A DNA stretch of 62,662 nt, from contig CADAEH010000014.1 of assembly GCA_902786855.1 (NCBI GenBank), positions 1-62,662 of the forward strand. The letters are read 5' to 3'. Made by a program: the position numbers and the translations under genes. Position 1 is the first letter of the stretch. Each line of letters begins with the position of its first letter. This stretch comes from an uncultured Eubacteriales bacterium (lineage in GTDB: Bacteria > Bacillota > Clostridia > Peptostreptococcales > Anaerovoracaceae). This document shows, piece by piece, positions 4,453 to 20,698 of the stretch. The notes beneath the pieces are model-generated. The model ran no database searches, was not told the origin of the DNA, and worked only from the letters and a program-made list of their open reading frames with translations.

Positions 4453-5796
4453 ATGGCATTCGAAGGACTTTCGGAAAAATTACAGAGCGCATTCAAAGAT
4501 CTCAAGGGCCAGGGTGTAGTCACTGAAAAGGATTTTGACAATGCGATGAGAGCGGTCAAGATGGCTTTGCTCGAAGCTGACGTCAACTTCAAGGTCGTCA
4601 AGGACTTTGTCGCCACCATCAAGGACAAAGCTCTGGGTGCAGGTGTCCTGAGCAGTCTCACACCGGACCAGATGGTCGTCAAGATCGTCAAGGATGAGAT
4701 GGTCGATATGATGGGAGGCACAGGCTCCAAGCTGACTTACTCACCGAGTGGATTCACGATCCTGATGCTGGTCGGTCTCCAGGGTACAGGTAAAACCACC
4801 ACAGCAGGTAAGCTCGCTTCATATCTCAAGCAGACAGGTAAGCACCCGATGCTTGCAGCATGCGACATCTACAGACCTGCTGCTATAGATCAGCTCGAGA
4901 TCGTGGGTAAAGCGGTCAAAACACCGGTCTATGTTGACAGAGAATCCCGCGATGTTGTAAAAATCGCCCAGGATGCGATCAAGGATGCTCAGAGAAAGGG
5001 CTGCAATGTTCTGATCGTCGATACAGCCGGACGTCTGCAGATCGATGAGCAGCTGATGGATGAGCTCAAGAGACTTAAGAAAGAAATAAGACCTCATGAG
5101 ATACTTCTCGTAGTCGATGCTCTTACCGGTCAGGACGCGGTCAATATCGCGAGTGGTTTCAACGATGCTCTCGGCGTTGACGGGATCATCATGACCAAGA
5201 TGGACGGTGATTCCAGAGGCGGTGCGGCACTGTCTGTCAAGGCTGTCACAGGCAAGCCTATCAAGTTCATGGGTACAGGCGAGAAATATAATGCACTTGA
5301 GCCGTTCCACCCTGACAGGATAGCTTCGAGGATACTCGGAATGGGAGACATAATGTCCCTCATCGAGCAGGCTGAGAATGCTTTTGACGAAGAAGAGTCA
5401 CGTAAGCTCGAAGAGAAGATCCGCAGGAACAAGTTCGACCTTGAAGACTTCCTCAACCAGATGAGGCAGATCAACAAGCTTGGCGGACTTGCCAAGATCA
5501 TAGACATGATCCCCGGTATCTCAGCAGCTGACAAGAAGAACATCGACCTCGAACAGGGTAGATCAGAGCTCAAAAAGATGGAAGCTATCATACTGTCCAT
5601 GACACCTGAGGAACGTCGCAGACCTAATATCCTCAATGCATCAAGGCGCAAGAGGATAGCTGCCGGTTCCGGTCAGACCGTGCAGTCAGTCAATCAGCTC
5701 ATCAAGAAGTATGAAGAGATGAAGAAAATGACCAAGATAATGGCTAATCCGAATTCCAAGAAGGCACGCGGTATGATGCGCAATCTCGGATTCTAA
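4453..5796 (+). CDS. ffh: Signal recognition particle GTPase Ffh
   Basis: The SRP54 protein binds 4.5S RNA and signal sequences of nascent membrane proteins and hands ribosomes to FtsY. In 447 residues it has the N domain (1-95), a G domain with P-loop GLQGTGKTTT near 108-117, DTAGRLQ near 190, TKMDGDSRGG near 247, and a Met-rich M domain (about 300-447) with the RNA-binding segment GSGQTVQSVNQLIKKY. Length is typical. The start is supported by GGAGAAG just upstream. It follows ylxM and precedes rpsP, a common gene order. Confidence 0.98.
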   Translation: MAFEGLSEKLQSAFKDLKGQGVVTEKDFDNAMRAVKMALLEADVNFKVVKDFVATIKDKALGAGVLSSLTPDQMVVKIVKDEMVDMMGGTGSKLTYSPSGFTILMLVGLQGTGKTTTAGKLASYLKQTGKHPMLAACDIYRPAAIDQLEIVGKAVKTPVYVDRESRDVVKIAQDAIKDAQRKGCNVLIVDTAGRLQIDEQLMDELKRLKKEIRPHEILLVVDALTGQDAVNIASGFNDALGVDGIIMTKMDGDSRGGAALSVKAVTGKPIKFMGTGEKYNALEPFHPDRIASRILGMGDIMSLIEQAENAFDEEESRKLEEKIRRNKFDLEDFLNQMRQINKLGGLAKIIDMIPGISAADKKNIDLEQGRSELKKMEAIILSMTPEERRRPNILNASRRKRIAAGSGQTVQSVNQLIKKYEEMKKMTKIMANPNSKKARGMMRNLGF

Positions 5797-5917
5797 ACAG
5801 TTATCAATTCCCTGATCACTCAATGCGCAGCATGCTTGTCTGCAGGCAGCGCGGGAACAGTGGATTTATAAAATAATAACAATTTCACATAAGAAAATTT
5901 AGGAGGAATAATTCATC

Positions 5918-6160
5918 ATGGTTAAGATCAGACTTAAGAGAATGGGAGCTCACAAGAAGCCTTTCTACAGAGTAGTTGTTGCAGATTCAAGAACACCTCG
6001 CAATGGTAAGTTCATCGAAGAGATCGGTACATACGATCCTCTGAAGAACCCTGCTGAGATCATCATCGACAACGAAGCAGCTAAGAAGTGGCTCGACAAC
6101 GGCGCACAGCCTACAGATACTGTAAGGGCTCTCCTCAAGAAGTCAGGCGCAATAGAGTAA
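5918..6160 (+). CDS. rpsP: 30S ribosomal protein S16
   Basis: An 80-residue full-length bS16, a small-subunit assembly protein that binds 16S rRNA. The N-terminus [20 protein letters not shown] is the family signature. AGGAGG lies 8-13 bases before ATG 5918. A 121-base leader separates it from ffh and holds an AT-rich stretch near 5868-5900 that may carry a promoter. It heads the rpsP-khpA-rimM-trmD group. Confidence 0.98.
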
Positions 6161-6251
6161 TACTGTCACATATCCGCATATAATAATGCAGCCGCCCTTT
6201 ACAGAGCGACACTGTATTATGGTGGATGGAAAAATAGGAAGGAAACAAAGC

Positions 6252-6485
6252 ATGGGAAGCCTAGTTGAAGTAATTGCCAAAGCTCTTGTGTCCAAGCCTG
6301 ACGAAGTTAAAGTTACTGAAGAAACAGACGGCAAGGAGATCCTTGTCAAGCTGCAGGTAGCTGACGAAGATATCGGGAAGATCATCGGGAAGTCAGGCCG
6401 CATTGCCAAGGCGATCAGGACGGTAGTCAAGGCTGCAGCAATCAAGCAGAATCTCAGAGTAACGGTGGAGATCGTTGAAGAATAG
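6252..6485 (+). CDS. khpA: KH-domain RNA-binding protein KhpA
   Basis: A 77-residue single KH-domain protein (YlqC/KhpA) that binds RNA, usually with KhpB, and influences cell division and elongation in Gram-positive bacteria. The GxxG loop is visible as GKIIGKSGR near residues 44-52. ATG 6252 is chosen because AGGAAGG lies 9 bases upstream and homologues begin at this point; an in-frame ATG at 6186 would add residues with no KH similarity. Its 3' end overlaps the start of rimM by 11 bases. Confidence 0.93.
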   Translation: MGSLVEVIAKALVSKPDEVKVTEETDGKEILVKLQVADEDIGKIIGKSGRIAKAIRTVVKAAAIKQNLRVTVEIVEE

Positions 6486-7035
6486 AGAAACTGAAGAATT
6501 AGTAAATATAGGAAGGATCGGCAGCAGTGTCGGGCTCAGAGGCGAAGTCAGAGTCACACTGTATGCACAGGATTCAACCAATCTGAAGGAGGGCAAAGTC
6601 CTCCTTCTTAAGCATTCCGGAAAACCGGCAGTCGTAGGCTCGGCCGGATCAGGAGCGCGCGAACTGGAGTTGAAGTGTCTCGGTGTCAGGCTGCAGAAGG
6701 ACAGACCGGTCATAAAGCTTGAGAGCATCACCGACAGGAATGCAGCAGATGAACTGAGAGGCATGGAAGTATATATCCATGAGGATCAGCTTGATGAGCT
6801 TCCTGAAGGAGAACACTATGTCAGAGACATAATCGGCTACAAGGTCGTAGATCTCGCAAGCGATACTGAAATCGGGGTCCTCAGAGATGTGATACAGAAC
6901 ACAGCTCAGAGCATACTTGATGTCAGAACAGCAGATGGAAAGCAGGTGCTCATACCGGCTGTAGATGCATTTCTGCGCAGGTTCGATGATGAAAACAGGA
7001 TAATAGAAGTAGAACTTATCCCGGGATTCATATGA
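6475..7035 (+). CDS. rimM: Ribosome maturation factor RimM
   Basis: A 186-residue 16S rRNA processing factor that helps 30S head assembly by binding ribosomal protein S19. The N-terminal domain shows IGRIGSSVGLRGEVRV (about 12-27) and a C-terminal PRC-barrel runs from about 100 to 180 ending in ELIPGFI. It has a TTG start at 6475, with GGTGGAG a few bases upstream inside khpA; no usable ATG exists before the conserved region. Start overlap with khpA and ATGA overlap with trmD indicate translational coupling. Confidence 0.95.
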   Translation: MKNRETEELVNIGRIGSSVGLRGEVRVTLYAQDSTNLKEGKVLLLKHSGKPAVVGSAGSGARELELKCLGVRLQKDRPVIKLESITDRNAADELRGMEVYIHEDQLDELPEGEHYVRDIIGYKVVDLASDTEIGVLRDVIQNTAQSILDVRTADGKQVLIPAVDAFLRRFDDENRIIEVELIPGFI

Positions 7036-7763
7036 AGGTAAATATACTGACTATCTTTCCCGAGATGTTCGCGCCTCTTCGGCAGAGCATGCTCGGAAGA
7101 GCGATAGACAACGGAATACTCGAGATCAGTGTGACTGATATCAGAGACTACACTCTGGACAAGCACAACCGCGTCGATGACACTCCGTACGGAGGCGGCG
7201 CAGGCATGGTGATGCAGGTGCAGCCCGTTTTGGATGCGTTCAGAGGAAGCGGCTGCGGCGGACAGGTCATATACATGTCTCCGCGCGGTGAGATGCTGTC
7301 GGGAGAACTCGCCCGGGAGATCGCTGCTATGCCTGAGATCACTATACTCTGCGGACATTATGAGGGTGTTGATCAGAGAGCGCTTGATGCTCTTAAGGCC
7401 AGAGAGATATCCATAGGCGATTATGTGCTGACAGGCGGAGAACTTCCTGCTATGGTGCTGATCGATACGGTGGCAAGGTTTATTGATGGTGTACTCTCAA
7501 GCGATGAGTCTGTGATGGATGAATCGGTCTATTCAGGACTTCTTGAGTATCCGCAGTATTCAAAGCCAAGAGAGTATGAGGGTATGGAGGTACCGGCTGT
7601 TCTCCTGTCGGGCAATCATCAGGAGATCGCCAGATGGCGCTGGAAACAGTCTCTCGAGCTGACGGCAGAGAGAAGACCGGACATGATGGAAGAGTATCTG
7701 AAGCAGCCTCGCCAGCTCACAAGAAGAGAAAAAGAAGTGCTTGAACAGTACCGGAAACGATAG
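7032..7763 (+). CDS. trmD: tRNA (guanine-N1)-methyltransferase TrmD
   Basis: This enzyme methylates G37 of tRNAs with S-adenosylmethionine and prevents +1 frameshifting. It has 243 residues, normal length, beginning MKVNILTIFPEMFAPL. The trefoil-knot motifs DDTPYGGGAGMVMQ (about 50-63), LCGHYEGVDQRA (about 112-123) and IGDYVLTGGELPAM are present. The ATG overlaps the rimM stop as ATGA. The usual following gene, rplS, is absent; a terminator and a new promoter come next. Confidence 0.98.
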   Translation: MKVNILTIFPEMFAPLRQSMLGRAIDNGILEISVTDIRDYTLDKHNRVDDTPYGGGAGMVMQVQPVLDAFRGSGCGGQVIYMSPRGEMLSGELAREIAAMPEITILCGHYEGVDQRALDALKAREISIGDYVLTGGELPAMVLIDTVARFIDGVLSSDESVMDESVYSGLLEYPQYSKPREYEGMEVPAVLLSGNHQEIARWRWKQSLELTAERRPDMMEEYLKQPRQLTRREKEVLEQYRKR

Positions 7764-7804
7764 TAAAGTGTACTTTACATAGCACAAAATATAGTTATTT
7801 TGAC

Positions 7805-7843
7805 AGCCCGTGGTAAATACATATTGTACTCATGGGCTTTTCT
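7805..7843 (+). terminator. Terminator after trmD
   Basis: AGCCCGTG at 7805-7812 pairs with CATGGGCT at 7831-7838 (one G-U pair), followed by TTTTCT. The promoter for the next gene is embedded in and just after it. Confidence 0.65.
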
Positions 7844-7853
7844 ATTGTATAAT
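7824..7853 (+). promoter_or_regulatory. Promoter of the HlyD-like/yggS/sepF group
   Basis: TTGTAC at 7824-7829, 18-base spacer, perfect TATAAT at 7848-7853. A transcript would start near 7860, about 10 bases before the ATG pair at 7870/7873. A second candidate, TTGACA at 7800 with TATTGT at 7822, overlaps the terminator. Confidence 0.65.
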
Positions 7854-7869
7854 TCAACGAAGAGGGCCC

Positions 7870-9195
7870 ATGATGAAAAAGAAGTGGTTAACAGCGATCA
7901 TAATCTATCTCGTGCTGCTCACATCATGCATCGTAGTAGTATATGCTGTTCCTTCAGTCAAGGGTATGCTCGAGAAAACTTACGTGGCAGAATTCGGTAA
8001 AATAGACATTGCCGATGAAGTCTCTGCCTTTATTGTGCGTGATGAGACCGTCTACGTTGCTGAACAAGACAGCGAGGTAAGCAGAGTCGCCAAGGAAGGC
8101 AGCCTTGTCAAATCGACCGCTCGTATCATGGAAGTTCAGCCTGTTGCAGACAGCGAAGAGGGTGTTTCTCACAAGTACTCTTCCGTGCTTGAAGCTCTTG
8201 GAGACGATGTAGTAGAGACAGACAATGGCAAGACTCATCATGCCGGATACGTCAGTTATTATGTTGACGGCGCAGAGGCAAAACTGACGACCGACAAGGT
8301 CACTTCGCTCGATCAGAAGAAACTGAAAGAGCTGACTGGCTTCAGCCGTGTAGATACTCAGGAAAATGTTTGTGCAAAGGGTGAGCCGCTGTTCAAGATA
8401 GTACACAACAGCAGATGGTTCCTCGTATTCTATATAGACAAGAAAGACGCAGAAAAGTATTACGAAGGACGTACGGTCTATCTTGAAACGGAAGACAGCA
8501 GTGTTCCTGTCAAAGTCGCATACAACGAGGAAGGCAAAAAGACCTCGAAGATCACACTTGCATGCAAAACGTTCTTTGACGGATTCCTCGATGAGAGACG
8601 CCTGGACACAACAATTACTGTAGCGAGCGCTGAGGGATTGGTTCTTGAGGATTCGAGCATAGTCAAAAAGGGGGAACAGATAGGAGTTCTGGTCAAGAAC
8701 AAGCTTGGAGAGCATAAGTTCAAACCGATCTCCATCAAGGCGGATAACGGCGAGCAGTGCGTTGTATATTCAGACATATATGTAGATGCCGACGGCAATT
8801 TTGTTGAGACGGTCAAGACTTATGATGAAATAGTCGCTGCTCCGACTGAGGAAGAAATAGCCGATCTGCAGGTGCAGGCGAAGCGTGAAGCTCAGGAAGC
8901 AGCTGAGGCTGCAAAAAAGAAGGCTGAGGAAGAGCGTAAGGCAGCAGAAAAAGAAGCTGCGGAAAAAGCGGCAGCTGAAAAAGCTGCAGCAGAGCAGGCT
9001 GCTCAGCAGGCACAGCAGCAACCGGCGGATCAGACGGCACAGCCTCCTGCAGACCAGACAGGGCAGCAGCCCGCAGAACAGACCGGAGATGTTTCTGCAG
9101 AGGAACAGGCTGTTATAGATGCGCAGAAAGCTGCAGGCATCCAATCAGATCCGGCACCGGAACCTATAGCTAACGGAGCTGAGACAGGACAATAA
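7870..9195 (+). CDS. HlyD-like membrane-anchored protein of the division cluster
   Basis: About 441 residues: N-terminal transmembrane anchor (about 5-27), an extracytoplasmic body with biotinyl-lipoyl-like and HlyD-type beta regions (for example GEPLFKIVHNSRWFLVFYID and KKGEQIGVLV), and a low-complexity Ala/Glu/Lys then Gln/Pro tail from about residue 340. Similar proteins occur next to yggS and sepF in many Clostridia; no ABC or tripartite partner is adjacent here, so a role at the division site or in envelope organisation is an inference. The start is 7870 or 7873 behind AGAGGG; an upstream in-frame GTG at 7810 lies in the terminator and is rejected. Confidence 0.75.
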   Translation: MMKKKWLTAIIIYLVLLTSCIVVVYAVPSVKGMLEKTYVAEFGKIDIADEVSAFIVRDETVYVAEQDSEVSRVAKEGSLVKSTARIMEVQPVADSEEGVSHKYSSVLEALGDDVVETDNGKTHHAGYVSYYVDGAEAKLTTDKVTSLDQKKLKELTGFSRVDTQENVCAKGEPLFKIVHNSRWFLVFYIDKKDAEKYYEGRTVYLETEDSSVPVKVAYNEEGKKTSKITLACKTFFDGFLDERRLDTTITVASAEGLVLEDSSIVKKGEQIGVLVKNKLGEHKFKPISIKADNGEQCVVYSDIYVDADGNFVETVKTYDEIVAAPTEEEIADLQVQAKREAQEAAEAAKKKAEEERKAAEKEAAEKAAAEKAAAEQAAQQAQQQPADQTAQPPADQTGQQPAEQTGDVSAEEQAVIDAQKAAGIQSDPAPEPIANGAETGQ

Positions 9196-9202
9196 CTGAA
9201 AA

Positions 9203-9907
9203 ATGAGTACGGATATTGCTGAAAGATATAAACAGATACTTGCAAGGAAAGATGCTGCTGCGATCCGCAGCGGCAGGAACCCGGAGGACGTCACTCTTAT
9301 GGCTGTCACCAAGACCCATACGCCTGATGAGATCAATCAGGCAATTGCAGCAGGTGCAGCAGACATCGGGGAAAACCGGGTCCAGGAAGTCCTTGAAAAG
9401 ATAGACAGGGTCAGTCCGGTTCGATGGCATCTTATCGGGCACCTTCAGACCAATAAAGTCAAGAACATAATTGACAAGGTCGTGATGATCCACTCGGTGG
9501 ATTCAATAAAACTTGCAAAAGAGATAAACAAGAGAGCCGGTGCGGCAGGCAAAGTCATGGATATACTGATAGAGATCAATTCCGCAATGGAGGAGACCAA
9601 GTCGGGTATCGCCGCAGATGATCTTAAGTCACTTGTTACAGAGATAACTTCAGAGTGCGATAATGTCCGCATCAGGGGTATCATGTGCATTCCGCCGATA
9701 GCGGTCGATCCTGAGGATGCAAGGCCGTATTTCCACGAAGCGCGTGAGATATTCGAGAATATGAAGACCTGGGATCTTCCAGAAGAAAGATTCTGCCCGG
9801 ATACACTTTCGATGGGTATGTCGGGGGATTTCGAAGTAGCAATTGAAGAGGGTTCAACAATAGTCAGAGTAGGCAGCTCTATATTCGGGCCGCGCAATTA
9901 CAGATAG
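9203..9907 (+). CDS. YggS-family pyridoxal phosphate homeostasis protein
   Basis: A 234-residue PLP-binding alanine-racemase-fold protein (YggS/YlmE/PLPHP) that buffers pyridoxal phosphate. The PLP lysine lies in LMAVTKTHTPDEI (about residue 36). IGENRVQEVLEK, WHLIGHLQTNK and LSMGMSGDFEVAIEEGST are family motifs, the last closing the phosphate site. It starts 8 bases after the previous gene and is followed 16 bases later by sepF, as in many Gram-positive genomes. Confidence 0.95.
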   Translation: MSTDIAERYKQILARKDAAAIRSGRNPEDVTLMAVTKTHTPDEINQAIAAGAADIGENRVQEVLEKIDRVSPVRWHLIGHLQTNKVKNIIDKVVMIHSVDSIKLAKEINKRAGAAGKVMDILIEINSAMEETKSGIAADDLKSLVTEITSECDNVRIRGIMCIPPIAVDPEDARPYFHEAREIFENMKTWDLPEERFCPDTLSMGMSGDFEVAIEEGSTIVRVGSSIFGPRNYR

Positions 9908-9923
9908 GGAGGATGCAGCAGAA

Positions 9924-10454
9924 ATGAGTTTCATGGACAAAATGAGGGATCTTGTAGGTATAGACTACGATGATGATGATATGGATATCACCCAGGAAGA
10001 GATCGACAACTACAAAAAGAGCATGGGAGCAAGCAGTTCAGCTCCACAGAGTGAAGACAAACCATCAGGAAATATCCCACCGCTCGGCTTTGGCGGTGTA
10101 GAGCCACCGATGACAGCAATGCCTAAGGCTCCTGCAGATATGCAGGCTTCGATGAATCAGTCAGGTCCATTTAAGATGGTGGTTATCGAGCCAAAAAGTC
10201 TTGACGAATGCCGTAAGTTGGTAGATAATCTCAGAGCGCGCAAGCCAGTCATCATCAATCTTGAGAGAGTTGAGACAGATCTTGCACGCAAGATGTTCGA
10301 CTTTCTGGGCGGAGCTACGTATGCTCTGTCAGGAACAGTTCAGAGAATCAACCAGAACATCTACATTTTTGCTCCTCAGAATGTAAACATCAAGGCTATG
10401 GTAGACAGAGCCACAGAGGCTGGCAAGCCTGCCAATGCTAACCCTTGGAAATAA
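9924..10454 (+). CDS. sepF: Cell division protein SepF
   Basis: A 176-residue FtsZ-tethering protein. The N-terminal MSFMDKMRDLVGID is an amphipathic membrane-targeting helix; an acidic, Ser/Pro-rich linker (about 12-75) follows; the C-terminal SepF domain (about 80-170) has PKSLDECRKLVDNLRARKPV and LARKMFDFLGGATYALSG, which form the FtsZ-binding dimer. GGGAGG precedes the ATG. The neighbours yggS upstream and divIVA downstream are typical; ylmG and ylmH, often between sepF and divIVA, are missing. Confidence 0.96.
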   Translation: MSFMDKMRDLVGIDYDDDDMDITQEEIDNYKKSMGASSSAPQSEDKPSGNIPPLGFGGVEPPMTAMPKAPADMQASMNQSGPFKMVVIEPKSLDECRKLVDNLRARKPVIINLERVETDLARKMFDFLGGATYALSGTVQRINQNIYIFAPQNVNIKAMVDRATEAGKPANANPWK

Positions 10455-10502
10455 CAGATTCGTTTAAAACAGTAATTACAGGAAAGGTAAGGTGCTGATA
10501 CT

Positions 10503-11216
10503 ATGATAATGCCTATTGATATCGATAAGAAAGAATTCAGCCGTGATAAAAGAGGATACAATTCCAGAGAAGTAGACGAGTTCCTGGACATAATCGTCGC
10601 TGACTACGAGAAGATCCTCAACGACAACAGATCCATGGCTCACAAGATCAAAGCTCTTGAAAAGCAGCTCGCTGAGACTCAGAAAGATGACAACGCTATG
10701 CTCGAGACGCTCGAGACTGCAAAGAAACTCATGGCAGATATATCCGCAAGTGCTGAGAGAAGAGCTGAACTCATGATGCGTGATGCTGAGCTTGAGGCTG
10801 AAAACATGCTGCTTGATGCCAAGGTCGCCGTCAGACAGATGAACGATGAGCACGTCATCCTCAGCAACAAGGTCAAGAGACTCAGAGCCAACATGCGTAA
10901 GATGCTCGAGGCTGAGCTTGCAAGACTTGATGACGACATTTTCGGTGTACTTGATGAGCTCGACAGAAGTGATATTCCTCTTATTGAGAAGGAGCTTGGT
11001 TCCGGAGCAGCAGTTGCACCTGTTGAAGAGACGATCGAAAAGGGTGCCACTATTGTCGTAAGCGATAAGCCTTCCCTTGATGGTTTTATCGTACCTGGTA
11101 AGGACGCAGCTGCTGATACCGTTACAGGACGCGCTACTATTTCTGATCTTTCAGAAGGTCTCAAGAAGATGGCAGAAGAATCTGCACCGATGGGCGATAC
11201 TATCATTCTTAAGTAA
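10503..11216 (+). CDS. divIVA: DivIVA-family cell division/polarity protein
   Basis: A 237-residue coiled-coil protein that recognises curved membrane at septa and poles. The N-terminus PIDIDKKEFSRDKRGYNSRE followed by VDEFLD is the DivIVA lipid-binding signature; a coiled coil extends from about residue 30 to 155. The last 80 residues are a less conserved tail. Either ATG 10503 or ATG 10509 could be the start (AAGGTG upstream). It is the last gene of the division group and is closed by a long terminator. Confidence 0.94.
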   Translation: MIMPIDIDKKEFSRDKRGYNSREVDEFLDIIVADYEKILNDNRSMAHKIKALEKQLAETQKDDNAMLETLETAKKLMADISASAERRAELMMRDAELEAENMLLDAKVAVRQMNDEHVILSNKVKRLRANMRKMLEAELARLDDDIFGVLDELDRSDIPLIEKELGSGAAVAPVEETIEKGATIVVSDKPSLDGFIVPGKDAAADTVTGRATISDLSEGLKKMAEESAPMGDTIILK

Positions 11217-11261
11217 TCAGACTTATTCTTATCTTTAAAAATAACAACAAAACAACAATTC

Positions 11262-11314
11262 AGAGGTGCTTTTTGTACGCACATTGTTTCAAGTACAAAA
11301 AAGCACCTCTTTTT
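11262..11314 (+). terminator. Terminator after divIVA
   Basis: A 17-base arm AGAGGTGCTTTTTGTAC (11262-11278) pairs with the arm beginning GTACAAAAAAGCACCTCT (11293-11310) and a T run follows. It is one of the longest stems in the window. Confidence 0.92.
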
Positions 11315-11341
11315 GTGCGGCTTATGACTGTGGGCTCTATA

Positions 11342-11370
11342 TTGCAGGCTTAAGACGATAATGGTAAAAT
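11342..11370 (+). promoter_or_regulatory. Promoter of rqcH (probable leaderless transcript)
   Basis: TTGCAG at 11342-11347, 17-base spacer, TAAAAT at 11365-11370 preceded by TGG (extended -10). Expected start of transcription is about 11377, only one or two bases before the ATG at 11379, which has no Shine-Dalgarno sequence. Confidence 0.65.
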
Positions 11371-11378
11371 AACTCCGT

Positions 11379-13136
11379 ATGGCTTACGATGGAATAATTA
11401 CTTATGCAATAACAAAAGAGCTTTCGCAAAAGATCACACTGGGAAAGATAGAAAAAGTATATCAACCCGGCAGTGAGGAACTGCTCATTCATATCCATAC
11501 AAGGAGCGGCAATGTCCGGCTTTTTATTTCATGTAACAGCCAGTCAGCGAGGGTATGCCTCACTACCGGCACATATGTGAATCCGGAACAGCCGCCGACT
11601 TTTTGTATGCTTCTGAGAAAGCATCTGCAGGGCGGCAGGATCACAGAGATCAGACAGCGCGCTTCCGAGAGGATCATAGAGATCGATATCGAGGCTCAGA
11701 ATGAGCTGGGGTTTTCTGTGAACCGCAGGCTTATCGTCGAGATAATGGCAAAGCACAGCAATATCGTTCTTGTTGATCTCGAGTCAGGAAAGATCATCGA
11801 CTCTATCAAAAGGATCTCTATCGATGTTAACAGGTACAGGCAGCTGCTCCCGGGTGTTATCTATCAGTATCCGCCTGAACAGGACAAGATCCCTTTCAAA
11901 GAAGTCGAAGCGGATATGCAGCTTCCGCATGATGACAGGGCTCTGATGAGCAGGATAGGAGGCATTTCTCCGGCTGTCAGCAGGGAGATGCTGTCAGGAC
12001 TTAGCAAAAGTCATGATGCTTCTGCCAGGTCATCTCTTCCGGCGGAGAGGCTTGTCCGGATCGTTGACTCAGTTGAAGACGGAACATATGCAGCAAGGGT
12101 CTATTGCGATCGGTCAGATCAAAGCGGGATGCCGCAGGCTCTGGGTGGAAAAGGTACTCCAAGGGAATTCCATATCACGGATCTTACAGAATACGAAGAC
12201 CTTGATACCCTATATTTTGACAGTCTGTCTGAATGTGTCGAATACTTTTTCTCTAATCGTGAGACAACCAATCTGGTCAGACAGAAGTCGCAGCCTTTGC
12301 TGAAATCTGTGCAGGCAGCGCTCAGCAAGGCTCTGCTCAAGAAGAAAAAACTGTCCGAAGATCTGCTGAGTGCAGAAAATTCGGATAAATACAGGCTCTA
12401 CGGAGAGCTGCTTACTGCCAACATCCATGCTGTCGCACCGGGAGCTCGCAGAGTAACTGTGACCAATTATTATGATGGAAGCCTTATAGATATCCCGCTC
12501 GATGAGAAGATCGGTGCGAGCGCTAATGCACAGCGCTATTTCAAGAAGTACTCTAAGGCGAGGACAGCGATCCATGAAAAGCGCGCACAGCTTGAGGATA
12601 ACGACAGGGATATTGAATACCTGGAGTCAGTCATACAGGCGATAGAGGCTGCTGACAGTGTGCCTCTGCTTGAGGCCATACGCGATGAGCTTGAGAGCAC
12701 GGGCTATGTCAGGAGAAGAGCCAAAGCATCTCAGAGGAAGAAGAAAGCTTCCAGACCTGAGCCCTACAGGTATCACCTGAGCGATGGGACGCTGGTGCTG
12801 GTTGGCAGGAATAATATCGAGAACGACTATCTCACGATGAAAATGGCATCCAAAACCGACGTCTGGATGCATACCAAGGACATTCCGGGCTCACATGTGA
12901 TAGTGAAGCTCGAAGACGGGAGGACGCTCAGCGATCTGCCGGCGGATATAATCTATGAGGCAGCATCTGTCGCAGCATTTCACAGCAAGGCGGCGGGCAG
13001 CACCAATGTGCCGGTTGACTATGTGCCGGTTCGTTATGTCAAAAAGCCTAACGGTGCCAAGCCCGGGATGGTAATATTTACGCACAACCGGACTGTGTTC
13101 GTTGATCCTAAGCTGCCGCAAGTATCTTCGAAATAG
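11379..13136 (+). CDS. rqcH: Rqc2/NFACT homologue RqcH
   Basis: A 585-residue ribosome-associated quality-control factor. On obstructed 50S-peptidyl-tRNA complexes it recruits tRNA-Ala and directs C-terminal alanine tailing. Domains run NFACT-N (about 1-270, beginning AYDGIITYAITKEL and including LRKHLQGGRI), two coiled-coil helices (about 270-430) and the NFACT-R domain (about 465-585) with DVWMHTKDIPGSHVIV. The family was earlier called fibronectin-binding protein FbpA. It appears to be translated from a leaderless message. lspA and rluD-type genes follow closely. Confidence 0.95.
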   Translation: MAYDGIITYAITKELSQKITLGKIEKVYQPGSEELLIHIHTRSGNVRLFISCNSQSARVCLTTGTYVNPEQPPTFCMLLRKHLQGGRITEIRQRASERIIEIDIEAQNELGFSVNRRLIVEIMAKHSNIVLVDLESGKIIDSIKRISIDVNRYRQLLPGVIYQYPPEQDKIPFKEVEADMQLPHDDRALMSRIGGISPAVSREMLSGLSKSHDASARSSLPAERLVRIVDSVEDGTYAARVYCDRSDQSGMPQALGGKGTPREFHITDLTEYEDLDTLYFDSLSECVEYFFSNRETTNLVRQKSQPLLKSVQAALSKALLKKKKLSEDLLSAENSDKYRLYGELLTANIHAVAPGARRVTVTNYYDGSLIDIPLDEKIGASANAQRYFKKYSKARTAIHEKRAQLEDNDRDIEYLESVIQAIEAADSVPLLEAIRDELESTGYVRRRAKASQRKKKASRPEPYRYHLSDGTLVLVGRNNIENDYLTMKMASKTDVWMHTKDIPGSHVIVKLEDGRTLSDLPADIIYEAASVAAFHSKAAGSTNVPVDYVPVRYVKKPNGAKPGMVIFTHNRTVFVDPKLPQVSSK

Positions 13137-13165
13137 AAACTTCCGGTCCGGAAGAAACAAAAACA

Positions 13166-13657
13166 ATGGAAAATACCGGACACTTAAAGACAAAATCAAT
13201 GATAATATACCCAGCGATCGCAGCAGCATTGATAGCTCTCGATCAGTTAACGAAATATCTGGTACGTGTAAATATGCAGCCCGGTGATAGTATACCGGTG
13301 ATCGGAAACTGGCTGCGCATTCTTTACGTACGCAATACCGGTACTGCTTTCAGCATGTTCGAGGGCAATAAATGGATCACCGTGGTCCTGACATCGGTCC
13401 TCATCATAGCATGCACCATATTCGTTATAAAGGAAGCTGCAGCCGGATCAAAAGTGACTTCCATCCTGCTTACTTTCGTTATTGCAGGCGGAGTGTCCAA
13501 TCTTATTGACAGGCTCACGCTGGGATATGTAACGGATATGATCTCCTGCGGGAGCTTTGCGGTATTTAACGTTGCGGATATAGGCGTGACATGCGGATGC
13601 TTTCTTACCGTGATATATCTGCTGCTTGAAATGCGAAGTGAAGGCAGTGATAAGTGA
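13166..13657 (+). CDS. lspA: Lipoprotein signal peptidase LspA
   Basis: Signal peptidase II, 163 residues with four transmembrane helices, cleaves prolipoproteins before the lipidated Cys. The aspartyl dyad is visible: Asp in NLIDRLTLG (about residue 115) and Asp in FNVADIGVTCG (about 132). ALDQLTKYLV near 25 and RNTGTAFSM near 60 are family motifs. ATG 13166 is 30 bases after rqcH; the GGAAG upstream is somewhat distant, so ATG 13199 is a possible alternative. Its clients in this window include the ABC binding lipoproteins. Confidence 0.95.
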   Translation: MENTGHLKTKSMIIYPAIAAALIALDQLTKYLVRVNMQPGDSIPVIGNWLRILYVRNTGTAFSMFEGNKWITVVLTSVLIIACTIFVIKEAAAGSKVTSILLTFVIAGGVSNLIDRLTLGYVTDMISCGSFAVFNVADIGVTCGCFLTVIYLLLEMRSEGSDK

Positions 13658-13698
13658 CTGACGCGGCATTCATCTGCTGCTGAAATGAGGGCAATAAA

Positions 13699-14718
13699 TT
13701 GAGCAGTAATATCGGTGGATCTTTAATAACAATTACAGCCGAAGCAGAGGACAACGGATCCCGTCTCGATGCTTTTATAGGCTGCAATACTGACGAGCTT
13801 TCACGGAGCTATGCGGTGAAGCTTATCGAGAAAGAACGGGTAACGGTCAACGGTGTCGTCGTCACATCAAAGAAAAAAGTCCTGACAGCGGGGGATGAGG
13901 TCGTGATCGACCTGCCTGAGCCTGAGACTCTTGATGTTACGCCTGAAGACATCCCGATCGATATCGTCTATGAGGATGGCGATGTTCTGGTGGTAAATAA
14001 GCCGCGCGGCATGGTGGTGCACCCGGGACCGGGCAACTGGTCAGGCACACTCGTCAATGCGATCATGTATCACTGCGGAGAGTCGCTGTCAACGATCAAC
14101 GGAGTAGTTCGCCCGGGGATCGTCCATCGTATAGACAAGGATACCAGCGGGCTTCTGATGATAGCCAAGAACGACAAGGCACATGAGTCACTCGCAGAGC
14201 AGCTGAAAGTACATTCTGTTACGCGTGAATACACCGCACTGTGCTGCGATAACATTGCAGAAACCGGAGGCTTCGGCGTCAGCGGGGTCACAAGGGAAAA
14301 AGATAATGACGGGGATACTTCTGAGGATATCATAACGATCGACGTACCGATCGGCCGTGATGACAGGAACCGTATGCGTCGCGCGGTCTACGGAAGTGCC
14401 GCACGGGAAGCTGTAACGCACATCAGCGTCATTGAGCGCTTTGGAAGATATACGCTTGTCAGAGCAAAACTTGAGACAGGAAGGACACACCAGATCAGGG
14501 TGCATATGGCATACTTACATCACCCGCTGGCAGGTGATGAACTGTACGGACCGCGCAGACAGACAGGAAGTATCGCCGGCGTAAAGGTCAGCGGACAACT
14601 TCTTCATGCAGGTACACTTGGCTTTATCCATCCGGCGAGCGGAGAATACATGGAGTTTCACTCGGAGCTGCCCGAGGTTTTCATGAAAGTGATCACAGCA
14701 CTACGCAGCAAACAATAA
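13699..14718 (+). CDS. RluD-family 23S rRNA pseudouridine synthase
   Basis: A 339-residue pseudouridine synthase with an N-terminal S4 domain (SRSYAVKLIEKERVTVNG, about 34-51) and a catalytic domain. The catalytic Asp is in HRIDKDTSGLLMIAKN (about residue 146). LETGRTHQIRVHMAYLHHPLAGD near the C-terminus is the RluA/RluD signature. A TTG start at 13699 is used with GAGGG upstream. It follows lspA, a conserved pairing. The insert of about 30 acidic residues near 200-215 is unusual but within family variation. Confidence 0.93.
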   Translation: MSSNIGGSLITITAEAEDNGSRLDAFIGCNTDELSRSYAVKLIEKERVTVNGVVVTSKKKVLTAGDEVVIDLPEPETLDVTPEDIPIDIVYEDGDVLVVNKPRGMVVHPGPGNWSGTLVNAIMYHCGESLSTINGVVRPGIVHRIDKDTSGLLMIAKNDKAHESLAEQLKVHSVTREYTALCCDNIAETGGFGVSGVTREKDNDGDTSEDIITIDVPIGRDDRNRMRRAVYGSAAREAVTHISVIERFGRYTLVRAKLETGRTHQIRVHMAYLHHPLAGDELYGPRRQTGSIAGVKVSGQLLHAGTLGFIHPASGEYMEFHSELPEVFMKVITALRSKQ

Positions 14719-18612: not shown

Positions 18613-18650
18613 GGGGCATGAACTGAGATTGCAGTTCATGCCTCTTTTGT
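18613..18650 (+). terminator. Terminator after the SDF symporter
   Basis: GGGCATGAACTG pairs with CAGTTCATGCCTC across GAGATTG, followed by TTTTGTT. Confidence 0.9.
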
Positions 18651-18700: not shown

Positions 18701-18787
18701 TTTACAGGTCACTTGAATGCATTATATTATGCCAGTGTGTGACATTTTTTTAACGAAATTTGAATTATCTATGCACTGTGATATATC
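18701..18787 (+). promoter_or_regulatory. Two candidate promoters of the aroE/K-aroQ unit
   Basis: Upstream candidate: TTTACA at 18701-18706, 16-base spacer, TATATT at 18723-18728. Downstream candidate: TTGAAT at 18760-18765, 16-base spacer, TATATC at 18782-18787 preceded by TGA (extended -10). The downstream one gives a leader of about 55 bases. The rest of the 242-base intergenic region is AT-rich without other visible structure. Confidence 0.5.
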
Positions 18788-18848: not shown

Positions 18849-20258
18849 ATGTCAAGATACGGATCGATTGGGGGCAACCATGGCTACAGCCAGCTCAGAA
18901 GGATCCATAATGAAGTAGCTGATTACGAATACGATGAGCTCATAGTATCTGGATCGGAAGGCCTTGGCGCTGTTCTGGCAGATACCAGATATGATGGATT
19001 CAATATCGCCAATCCTTACAGATATGAGGTCCTTCAATATCTCGATGAATTATCTGACGATGCCAGAAAAGCCGGGGCTGTGGATGTCGTAAGACGTCTG
19101 CCTGACGGGAGACTGGCAGGATATAATACCGATATGTATGGCTTCAGATATCTTGCTGAAGGATATGTCGAGGGCAAAAAGTGCGTAATACTGGGGACCG
19201 GAGGTGCAGCGACAGCAGCAGCCAGGGCTCTCAGTGAAATGGGTGCTGCTGAGATCGTGCTCGTGTCAAGATTCCCTGAGATGACTTCGCAGCGGCCGGT
19301 ACCTGCACCTGACGGGGGAGGAATCAATCTAGGTGATCTTTATCATGTAACAGGATACAACAGACTGTATCTGCACTACGATGCGCAGGTCATCATCAAC
19401 TGTACTCCTGCCGGAAGGGCGCCTGATATAGAACATTCAGCACTTTCGGACCAGAGAATATCGATAAGACTTTTCAGCAGGCTCGAGATGGCTATAGATA
19501 TGATCTATGATCCGTACAGGACCAAGTTCCTTCAGGATGCGCGCAGGCTCACCGGATGTCATACGAGATCAGGACTCGAGATGGCCATCTACCGGGCAAT
19601 AGCATCGCGCAATATCTGGTTAGGTAAGCCTGATAATATGGATGAAGACAGGCGGTTTATCATTCCGATAAAGCGACGGATCCTTAAAGATCAGCTGAAT
19701 GTCATTGCCATCGGGATGCCGGGAAGCGGAAAGACGACCATAATGCGCAGGTATGCGTATGAACTGGGACTGAAATTCATAGATACAGACGAAGAAACAG
19801 AAAAGCTCATGGGCGGAAAGATCCCTGATGTGCTGTCGGATAACGGCCTCGGGGAGGATTACTTCAAAGCGATGGAGCATGAAGCAGTCCGTAAAGCGTG
19901 CATGAATCGGGGAGCTGTCATAGCTACCGGAGGCAGCACAGCACTCAATCCGCTCAACAGAGATCTCCTCAGAGCAAACGGCATAGTCGTATATGTACGC
20001 CGGCCGCTTGAAATGCTTGACAGGAGAGGACGTGATATAAGCATCAACGCCGGACTGACAGAACTGTTCAACGTCAGAGACAGGGTTTACCGCAGAGCAT
20101 CCGATATGTCGATCCTGAATTCCAGGATCTTCGGAGACCGCAGGGCAAAGACCGGCGAGGGCAATACATATAATTATGAGCTGAAGGGATTCGTGTACTA
20201 TATCGCGAGAAAGATCGAGAGGTATCTGAATGAAATTGCTGATAATAAATGGACCTAA
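18849..20258 (+). CDS. AroE-AroK fusion-like protein with divergent active sites
   Basis: A 469-residue fusion. Residues 1-265 resemble shikimate dehydrogenase: the dinucleotide site GTGGAATAAARAL (about 116-128) and GYNTDMYGF are clear. By eye against E. coli AroE, several shikimate-binding residues differ: Ser16 is Leu, Thr61 is Ala, Lys65 is Arg (NPYR for VPFK), Asn86 is Asp (AGAVDVV), and Gln244 is Arg. Residues 278-469 resemble shikimate kinase: P-loop GMPGSGKTT, Asp in FIDTDEE, but Arg58 is Lys (YFKAME) and GGG is GGS; the lid RPLL is not seen. It may still act on shikimate or on a related compound. aroQ overlaps its end by 29 bases. Confidence 0.85.
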   Translation: MSRYGSIGGNHGYSQLRRIHNEVADYEYDELIVSGSEGLGAVLADTRYDGFNIANPYRYEVLQYLDELSDDARKAGAVDVVRRLPDGRLAGYNTDMYGFRYLAEGYVEGKKCVILGTGGAATAAARALSEMGAAEIVLVSRFPEMTSQRPVPAPDGGGINLGDLYHVTGYNRLYLHYDAQVIINCTPAGRAPDIEHSALSDQRISIRLFSRLEMAIDMIYDPYRTKFLQDARRLTGCHTRSGLEMAIYRAIASRNIWLGKPDNMDEDRRFIIPIKRRILKDQLNVIAIGMPGSGKTTIMRRYAYELGLKFIDTDEETEKLMGGKIPDVLSDNGLGEDYFKAMEHEAVRKACMNRGAVIATGGSTALNPLNRDLLRANGIVVYVRRPLEMLDRRGRDISINAGLTELFNVRDRVYRRASDMSILNSRIFGDRRAKTGEGNTYNYELKGFVYYIARKIERYLNEIADNKWT

Positions 20259-20664
20259 TATGAATCTTCTGGGAGTAAGGGAGCCTGAGATATTCGGGAC
20301 CAGAACTTACGAAGAACTGGTGGATTTCATAAGAGAGGAAAGAGGAGCCGATAACGAGCTCAAGTTCATCCAGACCAATCACGAAGGAGACATCATCGAC
20401 GAGATCCATCAGGCTTTCTTCGAAAACTATGACGGTATCGTCATCAACCCGGGCGGCCTTGCCCATACCAGTATTTCGATAATGGATGCAATGAAGGCTG
20501 TCAGGACGCCATGTGTTGAGGTCCACGTTTTAGAGCCGCTGCTCAGAGAAGAGTACCGTCATCATTCATATGCCGGAGAAGCTGCAATCGCAACAGTAGC
20601 CGGGAAAGGCTTCGATGGTTATGTTGAGGCCATTGATATCCTCAGCGACTTCGTCAATCAATGA
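20230..20664 (+). CDS. aroQ: Type II 3-dehydroquinate dehydratase-like protein, catalytic Tyr replaced
   Basis: A 144-residue protein of the type II dehydroquinase family (dodecameric in relatives; dehydrates 3-dehydroquinate). GPNMNLLGVREPE, INPGGLAHTS, the catalytic-site His in EVHVLEP and REEYRHHSY are present. At the position of the catalytic Tyr in the mobile loop (REPxxYG) it reads REPEIFG, that is Phe; codon TTC at 20293-20295 is unambiguous. The usual SN after EVHL is LEP here. It starts inside the end of the AroE-AroK gene, so the two are translationally coupled. Activity as a normal dehydroquinase is uncertain. Confidence 0.88.
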   Translation: MKLLIINGPNMNLLGVREPEIFGTRTYEELVDFIREERGADNELKFIQTNHEGDIIDEIHQAFFENYDGIVINPGGLAHTSISIMDAMKAVRTPCVEVHVLEPLLREEYRHHSYAGEAAIATVAGKGFDGYVEAIDILSDFVNQ

Positions 20665-20668
20665 TAAA

Positions 20669-20698
20669 AAGAGTGCCGGGAGATCTCCCGGCACTCTG
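20669..20698. terminator. Bidirectional terminator between aroQ and gpmI
   Basis: A near-perfect 28-base palindrome: AGAGTGCCGGGAGA pairs with TCTCCCGGCACTCT. Upstream A run and downstream T-containing tail allow use from both convergent genes. Confidence 0.85.

Follow-up and report, generated by a model that had tools for sequence, protein, structure and literature searches.

Why is a pair of shikimate-pathway genes kept when residues needed for its chemistry have changed? The question is raised by positions 18849 to 20664 of a 62,662-nucleotide stretch of DNA from an uncultured Eubacteriales bacterium (the window, meaning this whole stretch), which is contig C14 of a 2.9-Mb assembly of 62 contigs that is 87% complete (genome G000 below). 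Two genes lie there: aroEK, which encodes an AroE-AroK-like fusion, and aroQ, which encodes an AroQ-like dehydroquinase. We think it fairly probable that the pair is an operon remnant that no longer takes part in chorismate synthesis and has been retained for some nucleotide-dependent function of the kinase module, with the AroE domain no longer catalytic. The derived group referred to throughout comprises 16 genomes (G000, G010, G036, G007, G015, G030, G023, G065, G022, G064, G026, G008, G029, G033, G017, and G001). The parts of the pair are:

18849..20258, + strand: AroE-AroK-like fusion with eroded catalytic residues, 469 aa (from the open reading frame, Pfam matches, and alignments)
18849..19163, + strand: AroE substrate-binding half, residues 1-105, with S16L, T61A, K65R, and N86D; the least conserved part in the derived group
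19164..19448, + strand: AroE NADP (nicotinamide adenine dinucleotide phosphate)-binding half, residues 106-200, with an intact GTGGAA motif
19449..19634, + strand: AroE C-terminal segment, residues 201-262, containing Q244R
19695..20132, + strand: shikimate-kinase-like domain, residues 283-428, with R58K and G81S; the P-loop, DxD, LID Arg, and distal Arg are retained
20118..20240, + strand: kinase-domain loop (residues 424-442, partly low-confidence in the structure model) and C-terminal helix (residues 443-464)
20230..20664, + strand: AroQ-like type II dehydroquinase, 144 aa, with Tyr24Phe and Ser103Leu

The end of the fusion reading frame and the start of the AroQ frame share 29 nt. The domains were assigned by Pfam matches to Shikimate_dh_N (31.6 bits; cut-off 27) and SKI (93.7 bits; cut-off 22.1) in the fusion and to DHquinase_II (PF01220; 159.6 bits; cut-off 23.3) in AroQ.

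Residue changes in the three domains

Alignment to E. coli AroE (with the residue numbers of the reference checked) shows that the fusion carries the five AroE substitutions listed above and keeps S14, N59, T101, and D102, so that five of nine substrate or catalytic positions are altered; the AroE fold and the NADP-binding motif are present. The residues resulting from N86D, Q244R, and K65R (D79, R249, and R58 of the fusion) would cluster in the AroE pocket, where they may make a salt bridge that closes it. These five replacements had been read from the DNA in the original prediction, together with a Lys for the kinase Arg, GGS for GGG, a Phe for the catalytic Tyr of the dehydroquinase, and intact GTGGAA and GMPGSGKTT motifs, and our alignments and motif readings agree on each of these. 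All ten AroE positions compared are retained in 16 of 16 canonical relatives, whereas at least one is lost in 14 of 14 members of the eroded groups, each of which has lost one to six of the nine active-site positions. G064, whose full fusion gene was read separately from these 14, has lost three. Among AroE columns that are invariant in the canonical set (12 rows, five of them operon-linked), 12 derived sequences alter 9 of 9 active-site columns compared to 9 of 27 others (Fisher P = 0.001), which corresponds to 47 of 108 altered cells in the former and 20 of 324 in the latter. The last two comparisons imply that the residue changes are not due to chance. Fragments from G001, G026, and G029 were excluded from the ten-position alignment and the invariant-column tests; G029 was kept in the E. 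coli AroE alignment and the motif reading.

The extent of the erosion varies. K65 is lost in most eroded fusions and kept in G015, G065, and G005x, where other residues are lost, and the mildest AroE cases are G023 (K65N only) and G030 (T61S and K65R). The loss had been called coordinated across the three domains, which holds insofar as AroE is altered in every derived species read; which residues are lost in the other domains differs by species, with kinase R58 gone in 6 of 12 and dehydroquinase Tyr24 in 4 of 8. NCBIfam equivalog cut-offs were dropped as an indicator of lost function, as five canonical control fusions fell below them too: the fusion scored 113.7 bits against TIGR00507 (AroE; cut-off 200.2; controls 157.8-163.9) and 82.7 bits against NF010553 (AroK; cut-off 204; controls 83.0-124.7).

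In the kinase domain, the P-loop GMPGSGKTT, DTD, GG, and the equivalents of R117 (LID), R136 (distal substrate Arg), and D34 (fusion residue 314) are kept; Lys replaces R58, the proximal substrate Arg, and Ser replaces the last Gly of GGG. R58 and R136 are shikimate-binding residues of shikimate kinase (PMC2593004; PMC7144000). R58 and this Gly are among the 5 of 20 invariant kinase columns that are altered in the derived group. Every full-length member read retains the P-loop Lys, D34, and R136, and all but G022 and G064, which have Lys, retain the LID Arg. Loop 424-442 comes after the last strand of the kinase fold in the structure model, at what appears to be the position of the adenine-binding loop of shikimate kinases, which in the M. 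tuberculosis enzyme comprises residues 148-155 (PMC3646032). Whole-model structure searches matched mostly residues 1-284 and have no bearing on the fold of the tail.

AroQ keeps N12, R19, N75, H81, D88, H101, R108, and R112. Its two changed residues matter in type II dehydroquinases, where Tyr24 is indispensable and the carboxylate of the substrate is bound by Ser103 (PMC6011038). Besides the change of Tyr24 to Phe in 4 of 8 derived species, Ser/Thr103 is lost in 7 of 8 derived AroQ proteins, H81 is Tyr in G015, and 7 of 35 canonical-invariant columns are altered in at least one derived row. AroQ scored 157.8 bits against the subfamily model NF003805 (cut-off 146) and 147.4 bits against TIGR01088 (cut-off 169.85; a comparison without a canonical control).

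Partial loss of an aro operon in place

The gmk-gpmI interval of G013, G028, and G063 contains aroF, aroA, aroC, a chorismate mutase gene, aroEK, and aroQ, and the AroE residues there are canonical; the gene families of this operon were confirmed on G028. The same aro block adjoins gmk in G061, where gpmI lies elsewhere. In the derived genomes, aroEK stands between gmk and gpmI with or without aroQ, and the four genes that precede it in the operon are absent from this place in 14 of 14 readable cases (in G026 and G001 the upstream side is unreadable, as the contigs start inside the fusion gene). The derived fusions form one clade (support 100/99; trees with 12 and 13 rows) nested within the operon-linked canonical fusions, and a tree of gpmI, addA, and gmk places the derived genomes inside a crown of 37 species (100/100), of which others lack the gene. 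This species tree was built without G011, G014, G020, G032, G035, G061, and G063. The operon was partly lost in place, the substrate residues of AroE were substituted repeatedly, and the nucleotide site of the kinase was kept.

The same course was taken in parallel by a second lineage. G005 and G062 form a separate lineage (100/100) in which the gmk-gpmI interval likewise contains an eroded fusion and aroA, aroB, and aroC lie elsewhere. A single clade of derived, operon-linked, and G005/G062 copies was not rejected (p-AU, the P value of the approximately unbiased test, 0.54). As a separate observation, made by eye, the eroded copies of this lineage both carry an inserted stretch of some 45 residues toward the end of their AroE domain (L139, G062:C54, 2033-3619; L141, G005:C20, 3834-5270).

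The fusion is under strong purifying selection in five close species, comparable to that on neighboring housekeeping genes. Among G000, G010, G036, and G007, nonsynonymous distances (dN) were 0.074-0.117 for aroEK, compared to 0.038-0.085 for gpmI, 0.067-0.147 for gmk, 0.082-0.138 for yicC, and 0.168-0.251 for addA, and aroQ had the lowest or equal lowest dN in all six pairs (0.025-0.050). The aroEK range thus falls between that of gpmI and those of gmk or yicC, and below that of addA. In pairs with G015, the signal was weaker, and the corresponding values were 0.171-0.189 (aroEK), 0.074-0.095 (gpmI), 0.150-0.172 (gmk), 0.127-0.157 (yicC), 0.253-0.279 (addA), and 0.095-0.117 (aroQ). The ratio of dN to the synonymous distance (dS) for aroEK was 0.040-0.055 among the first four genomes, where dS is saturated, and the reading frame is intact in 13 of 13 full-length derived genes read. 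The original prediction had judged random decay unlikely, and this judgment is borne out by changes aimed at substrate sites alongside strong purifying selection.

Constraint has also shifted within the protein. In a comparison of 12 derived species with five operon-linked species, invariant columns dropped to 11 of 105 in the derived AroE substrate half, compared to 40 of 105 in the operon-linked fusions, and the kinase core was less affected (49 of 141 compared to 59 of 141). By contrast, loop 424-442 has 10 of 19 invariant columns in the derived species against 3 of 19, and helix residues 443-460 have 9 of 18 against 1 of 18, in both cases despite the larger number of derived rows. The overlap with aroQ starts only at residue 461 and so does not explain the conservation of the loop and helix.

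Remaining pathway genes and competing explanations

In G000, at 87% completeness, we found no match to aroC or aroB. The genome encodes a single protein of the 5-enolpyruvylshikimate-3-phosphate (EPSP) synthase family, which we read as MurA by its score and length, and its one shikimate kinase domain and one type II dehydroquinase are those of the fusion and AroQ themselves. No aroC match and a single EPSP-family match, likewise read as MurA, were found in 10 of 16 derived genomes; among these, aroB was also without a match in G030 and G023 (both 95% complete) and in G022 (92% complete, 7% contamination), which makes assembly gaps unlikely as the general cause. An aroC gene is present elsewhere in the remaining 6 of 16, and each of these six has a further AroE-AroK-like match whose contig also carries other aro genes. 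In the three of these genomes whose second copy was read (G015, G036, and G017), its residues are canonical, which implies that the eroded copy is not needed for the pathway there. Matches to the Chorismate_bind family (anthranilate/aminodeoxychorismate synthase) were absent from 48 of 48 genomes of the genus and present in 14 of 14 control genomes, so species of the genus with the pathway may use chorismate through chorismate mutase only.

These results bear on the alternative offered in the original prediction, a lineage-specific but functional shikimate pathway in which other residues compensate. Most AroQ active-site residues are kept, six derived genomes have aroC elsewhere, and the incompleteness of G000 could hide genes; however, no aroC, aroB, or AroA-like gene was found in G000, the same pattern recurs in the more complete assemblies of G030, G023, and G022, and the aroC-bearing genomes have another AroE-AroK-like match, canonical in the three read. 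We therefore regard a divergent working pathway as very improbable.

A second AroE-like gene, which the original prediction had proposed to look for, does exist on contig C19 of G000, but it is YdiB-like and belongs to a gene cluster of the quinate/shikimate type. This cluster (L149, G000:C19:25000-39440, 4961-14285) encodes a flavin mononucleotide (FMN) oxidoreductase, a LysR regulator (named by eye), the YdiB-like dehydrogenase, a major facilitator superfamily (MFS) transporter, the type I AroD, and a tripartite ATP-independent periplasmic (TRAP) transporter. The YdiB-like protein has GYITDG, compared to N before TD in the aligned AroE sequences. A link between the derived fusion and this gene was considered and rejected, as the gene is present in 6 of 14 derived genomes compared to 13 of 23 other genomes of the genus. 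In another side observation, an aro operon stretch of about 11-12 kb is 99.9% identical in L146 (G036:C27), L147 (G015:C51), and L148 (G009:C31), whereas identity is 75-82% for the window locus of G036 and G015. The stretch may have been transferred very recently; it is equally likely that a single contig was binned into three assemblies, so the aroC of G015 may not be its own.

Could the pair instead be residual enzymes of a rewired route, with the kinase acting on shikimate or a related plant cyclitol and AroQ or AroE on an analogue, in the use of dietary quinate or shikimate? The invariant P-loop Lys, D34, and R136, the nearly invariant LID Arg, and the dehydrogenase, AroD, and transporters of the C19 cluster would fit such a route. 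It is made unlikely, in our view, by the altered AroE substrate residues in every derived member read, by the loss of R58 in half of the species, by the lack of co-occurrence with the YdiB-like gene, and by the lone EPSP-family match in 10 of 16 genomes, which leaves nothing to use shikimate 3-phosphate. A different substrate or chemistry, as first proposed, is possible, but a loss of catalysis with retention of a nucleotide-dependent role accounts for the observations no less well. We give little credence to a functionless relic left over after pathway loss and drifting to extinction. The gmk-gpmI junction is indeed empty in several crown lineages, such as G019 and G069, and aroQ was not found in half of the derived genomes, but the dN of the fusion lies within the range of neighboring housekeeping genes, its frames are intact, and its loop and C-terminal helix have gained constraint.

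We therefore return to the operon remnant kept for its kinase module. An ancestral aroF-aroA-aroC-chorismate mutase-aroEK-aroQ operon would have lost its upstream genes, leaving the aroEK-aroQ end; the fusion protein would then have left chorismate synthesis and lost shikimate dehydrogenase activity. The kinase module would be retained for a nucleotide-dependent role, consistent with the kept P-loop, DxD, LID Arg, and distal Arg and with the newly constrained loop and helix, and the AroE domain would now be a non-catalytic regulatory or scaffold part. Since aroQ is present in 8 of 16 derived genomes and was not found in the other 8, its product would serve as an accessory partner. We lean slightly toward a kinase module that is still a phosphotransferase or ATPase rather than a sensor of ATP (adenosine triphosphate) and a ligand. 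The occurrence of the same shift in a second lineage at the same locus implies that the ancestral AroE-AroK probably had this role as a secondary function, which became visible once catalysis was unneeded. We suggest more tentatively that this family's AroE-AroK had a second nucleotide-dependent function, residing in the kinase module and loop-helix and separate from chorismate synthesis, and that at least two lineages kept only that when catalysis could be dispensed with, as a metabolite-sensing or signaling kinase.

Several points weigh against this interpretation. Several lineages of this crown group lack the fusion, and presence and absence require at least four changes on the species tree (a count that omits G068 and G071, where the gene side is at a contig end or was not fetched), so that the role is dispensable. 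The dN of aroEK is somewhat higher than that of gpmI in 10 of 10 pairs and, with G015, at or above that of gmk and yicC; distance-ratio ranges overlap; and synonymous sites have reached saturation (dS of 1.6-2.4 in the four close genomes and undefined in some segments), so that dN/dS is rough. For G000 alone, the missing genes could reflect an assembly gap. The P-loop Lys, D34, R58, GGG, and R136 are all canonical in G030, G023, G065, G022, G064, and G008, where shikimate kinase activity is possible, and the mildest AroE cases (G023 and G030) could keep weak activity, by analogy with M. tuberculosis AroE, in which mutation of the catalytic lysine lowered kcat 68-fold and left about 1.5% (PMC2789096). 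Loop residues 430-439 have a pLDDT (predicted local distance difference test score) below 50. Finally, the derived fusion shows no association with the YdiB-like gene, and neither a nearby partner gene nor a regulatory RNA was found when looked for at the locus.

Related proteins and the surroundings of the locus

Shikimate kinase descendants with other roles are known from plants, fungi, and bacteria. SKL1 and SKL2 are plant gene duplicates that lack an AroE domain and are not remnants of a bacterial operon. Fungal quinate repressors descend from the shikimate kinase, dehydroquinase, and shikimate dehydrogenase part of AROM, so that consecutive shikimate-enzyme domains are now a non-enzymatic regulator, and their dehydroquinase domain is type I and lies within the one protein. 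By contrast, AroQ of the window is type II, is encoded by a separate reading frame, and has no shown link to quinate genes. A. nidulans QUTR and A. niger QutX are each the partner of an activator in the quinate system (PMC12610400). SKL1 and SKL2 resemble the window fusion as shikimate kinase descendants kept under selection, and are without shikimate kinase activity; SKL1, like the fusion (R58K), keeps most of the ATP site and has lost the proximal substrate Arg, but unlike the fusion it has also lost the catalytic LID Arg (PMC2593004). The bacterial benzoate-responsive repressor BzdR has a shikimate kinase fold with Walker A kept, no detectable shikimate kinase activity, and benzoyl-CoA (benzoyl-coenzyme A) as its ligand; its N-terminal domain is helix-turn-helix (HTH-XRE), where the window fusion has an AroE domain instead (PMC3602430). 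No DNA-binding or HTH domain was found among the Pfam matches of the window proteins at E values up to 0.01. Thus, the window pair shares with these systems the loss of substrate residues alongside retention of the nucleotide site, and differs from them in its domains, in lacking a detected DNA-binding domain, and in having outlived most of its own operon.

Also close are the canonical AroE-AroK fusions of the same genus and family, those of G013, G028, G161, and G201 among them, which have the same domain order, the C-terminal extension of the kinase (in these four), and aroQ directly 3'. The canonical fusions keep all ten AroE positions, and the operon-linked ones have aroA and aroC adjoining; the window fusion has neither property. 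In the wider family, we also noted apparent chorismate synthase-AroE-AroK triple fusions (reading frames of 828 and 847 aa) and fusions of chorismate mutase with AroE-AroK, at L109 (G201), L110 (G147), L108 (G136), and L104 (G005 C23), with canonical AroE residues and N-terminal parts named by eye.

No description of this aroEK-aroQ remnant was found among the open-access papers listed by literature searches. The locus presents a textbook pathway dismantled in steps that are visible across living species, with two enzymes apparently held by selection after the loss of their chemistry, and it offers a way to test for a hidden second function of shikimate enzymes. Annotation would assign the AroE, AroK, and AroQ steps to these gut bacteria, which are probably unable to carry them out. 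If true, the second-function proposal would describe a bacterial signaling kinase built from shikimate enzymes, in a logic comparable to that of the fungal quinate repressors.

Three further features flank the pair:

18613..18644, + strand: terminator-like hairpin 3' of the upstream dicarboxylate symporter gene (consensus match only)
18701..18730, + strand: promoter-like hexamers 5' of the fusion gene (consensus match only; the two strands of the region have 7, compared to 3.9 expected)
20670..20697, both strands: terminator-like hairpin between aroQ and the convergent gpmI

The hairpin ahead of the fusion implies that the pair may form its own transcription unit. An RNA switch or T-box 5' of the pair was rejected, as the single match, at the terminator, was below threshold (E 0.35; 19.7 bits compared to a gathering score of 97), and none of seven related loci gave an RNA match at gathering score. 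We also rejected a conserved partner gene next to aroEK-aroQ, as the shared neighbors gmk, yicC, gpmI, and addA and genes of the block further upstream are also common to operon-bearing species. Phage records gave 33 matches, all below 60% identity, and the five listed ones carried no annotation. The orientation of gpmI varies: it is on the same strand as gmk and addA, and not convergent as in the window, in L091 (G022), L142 (G026), and L118 (G064), and at gene-less junctions such as L131 (G003).
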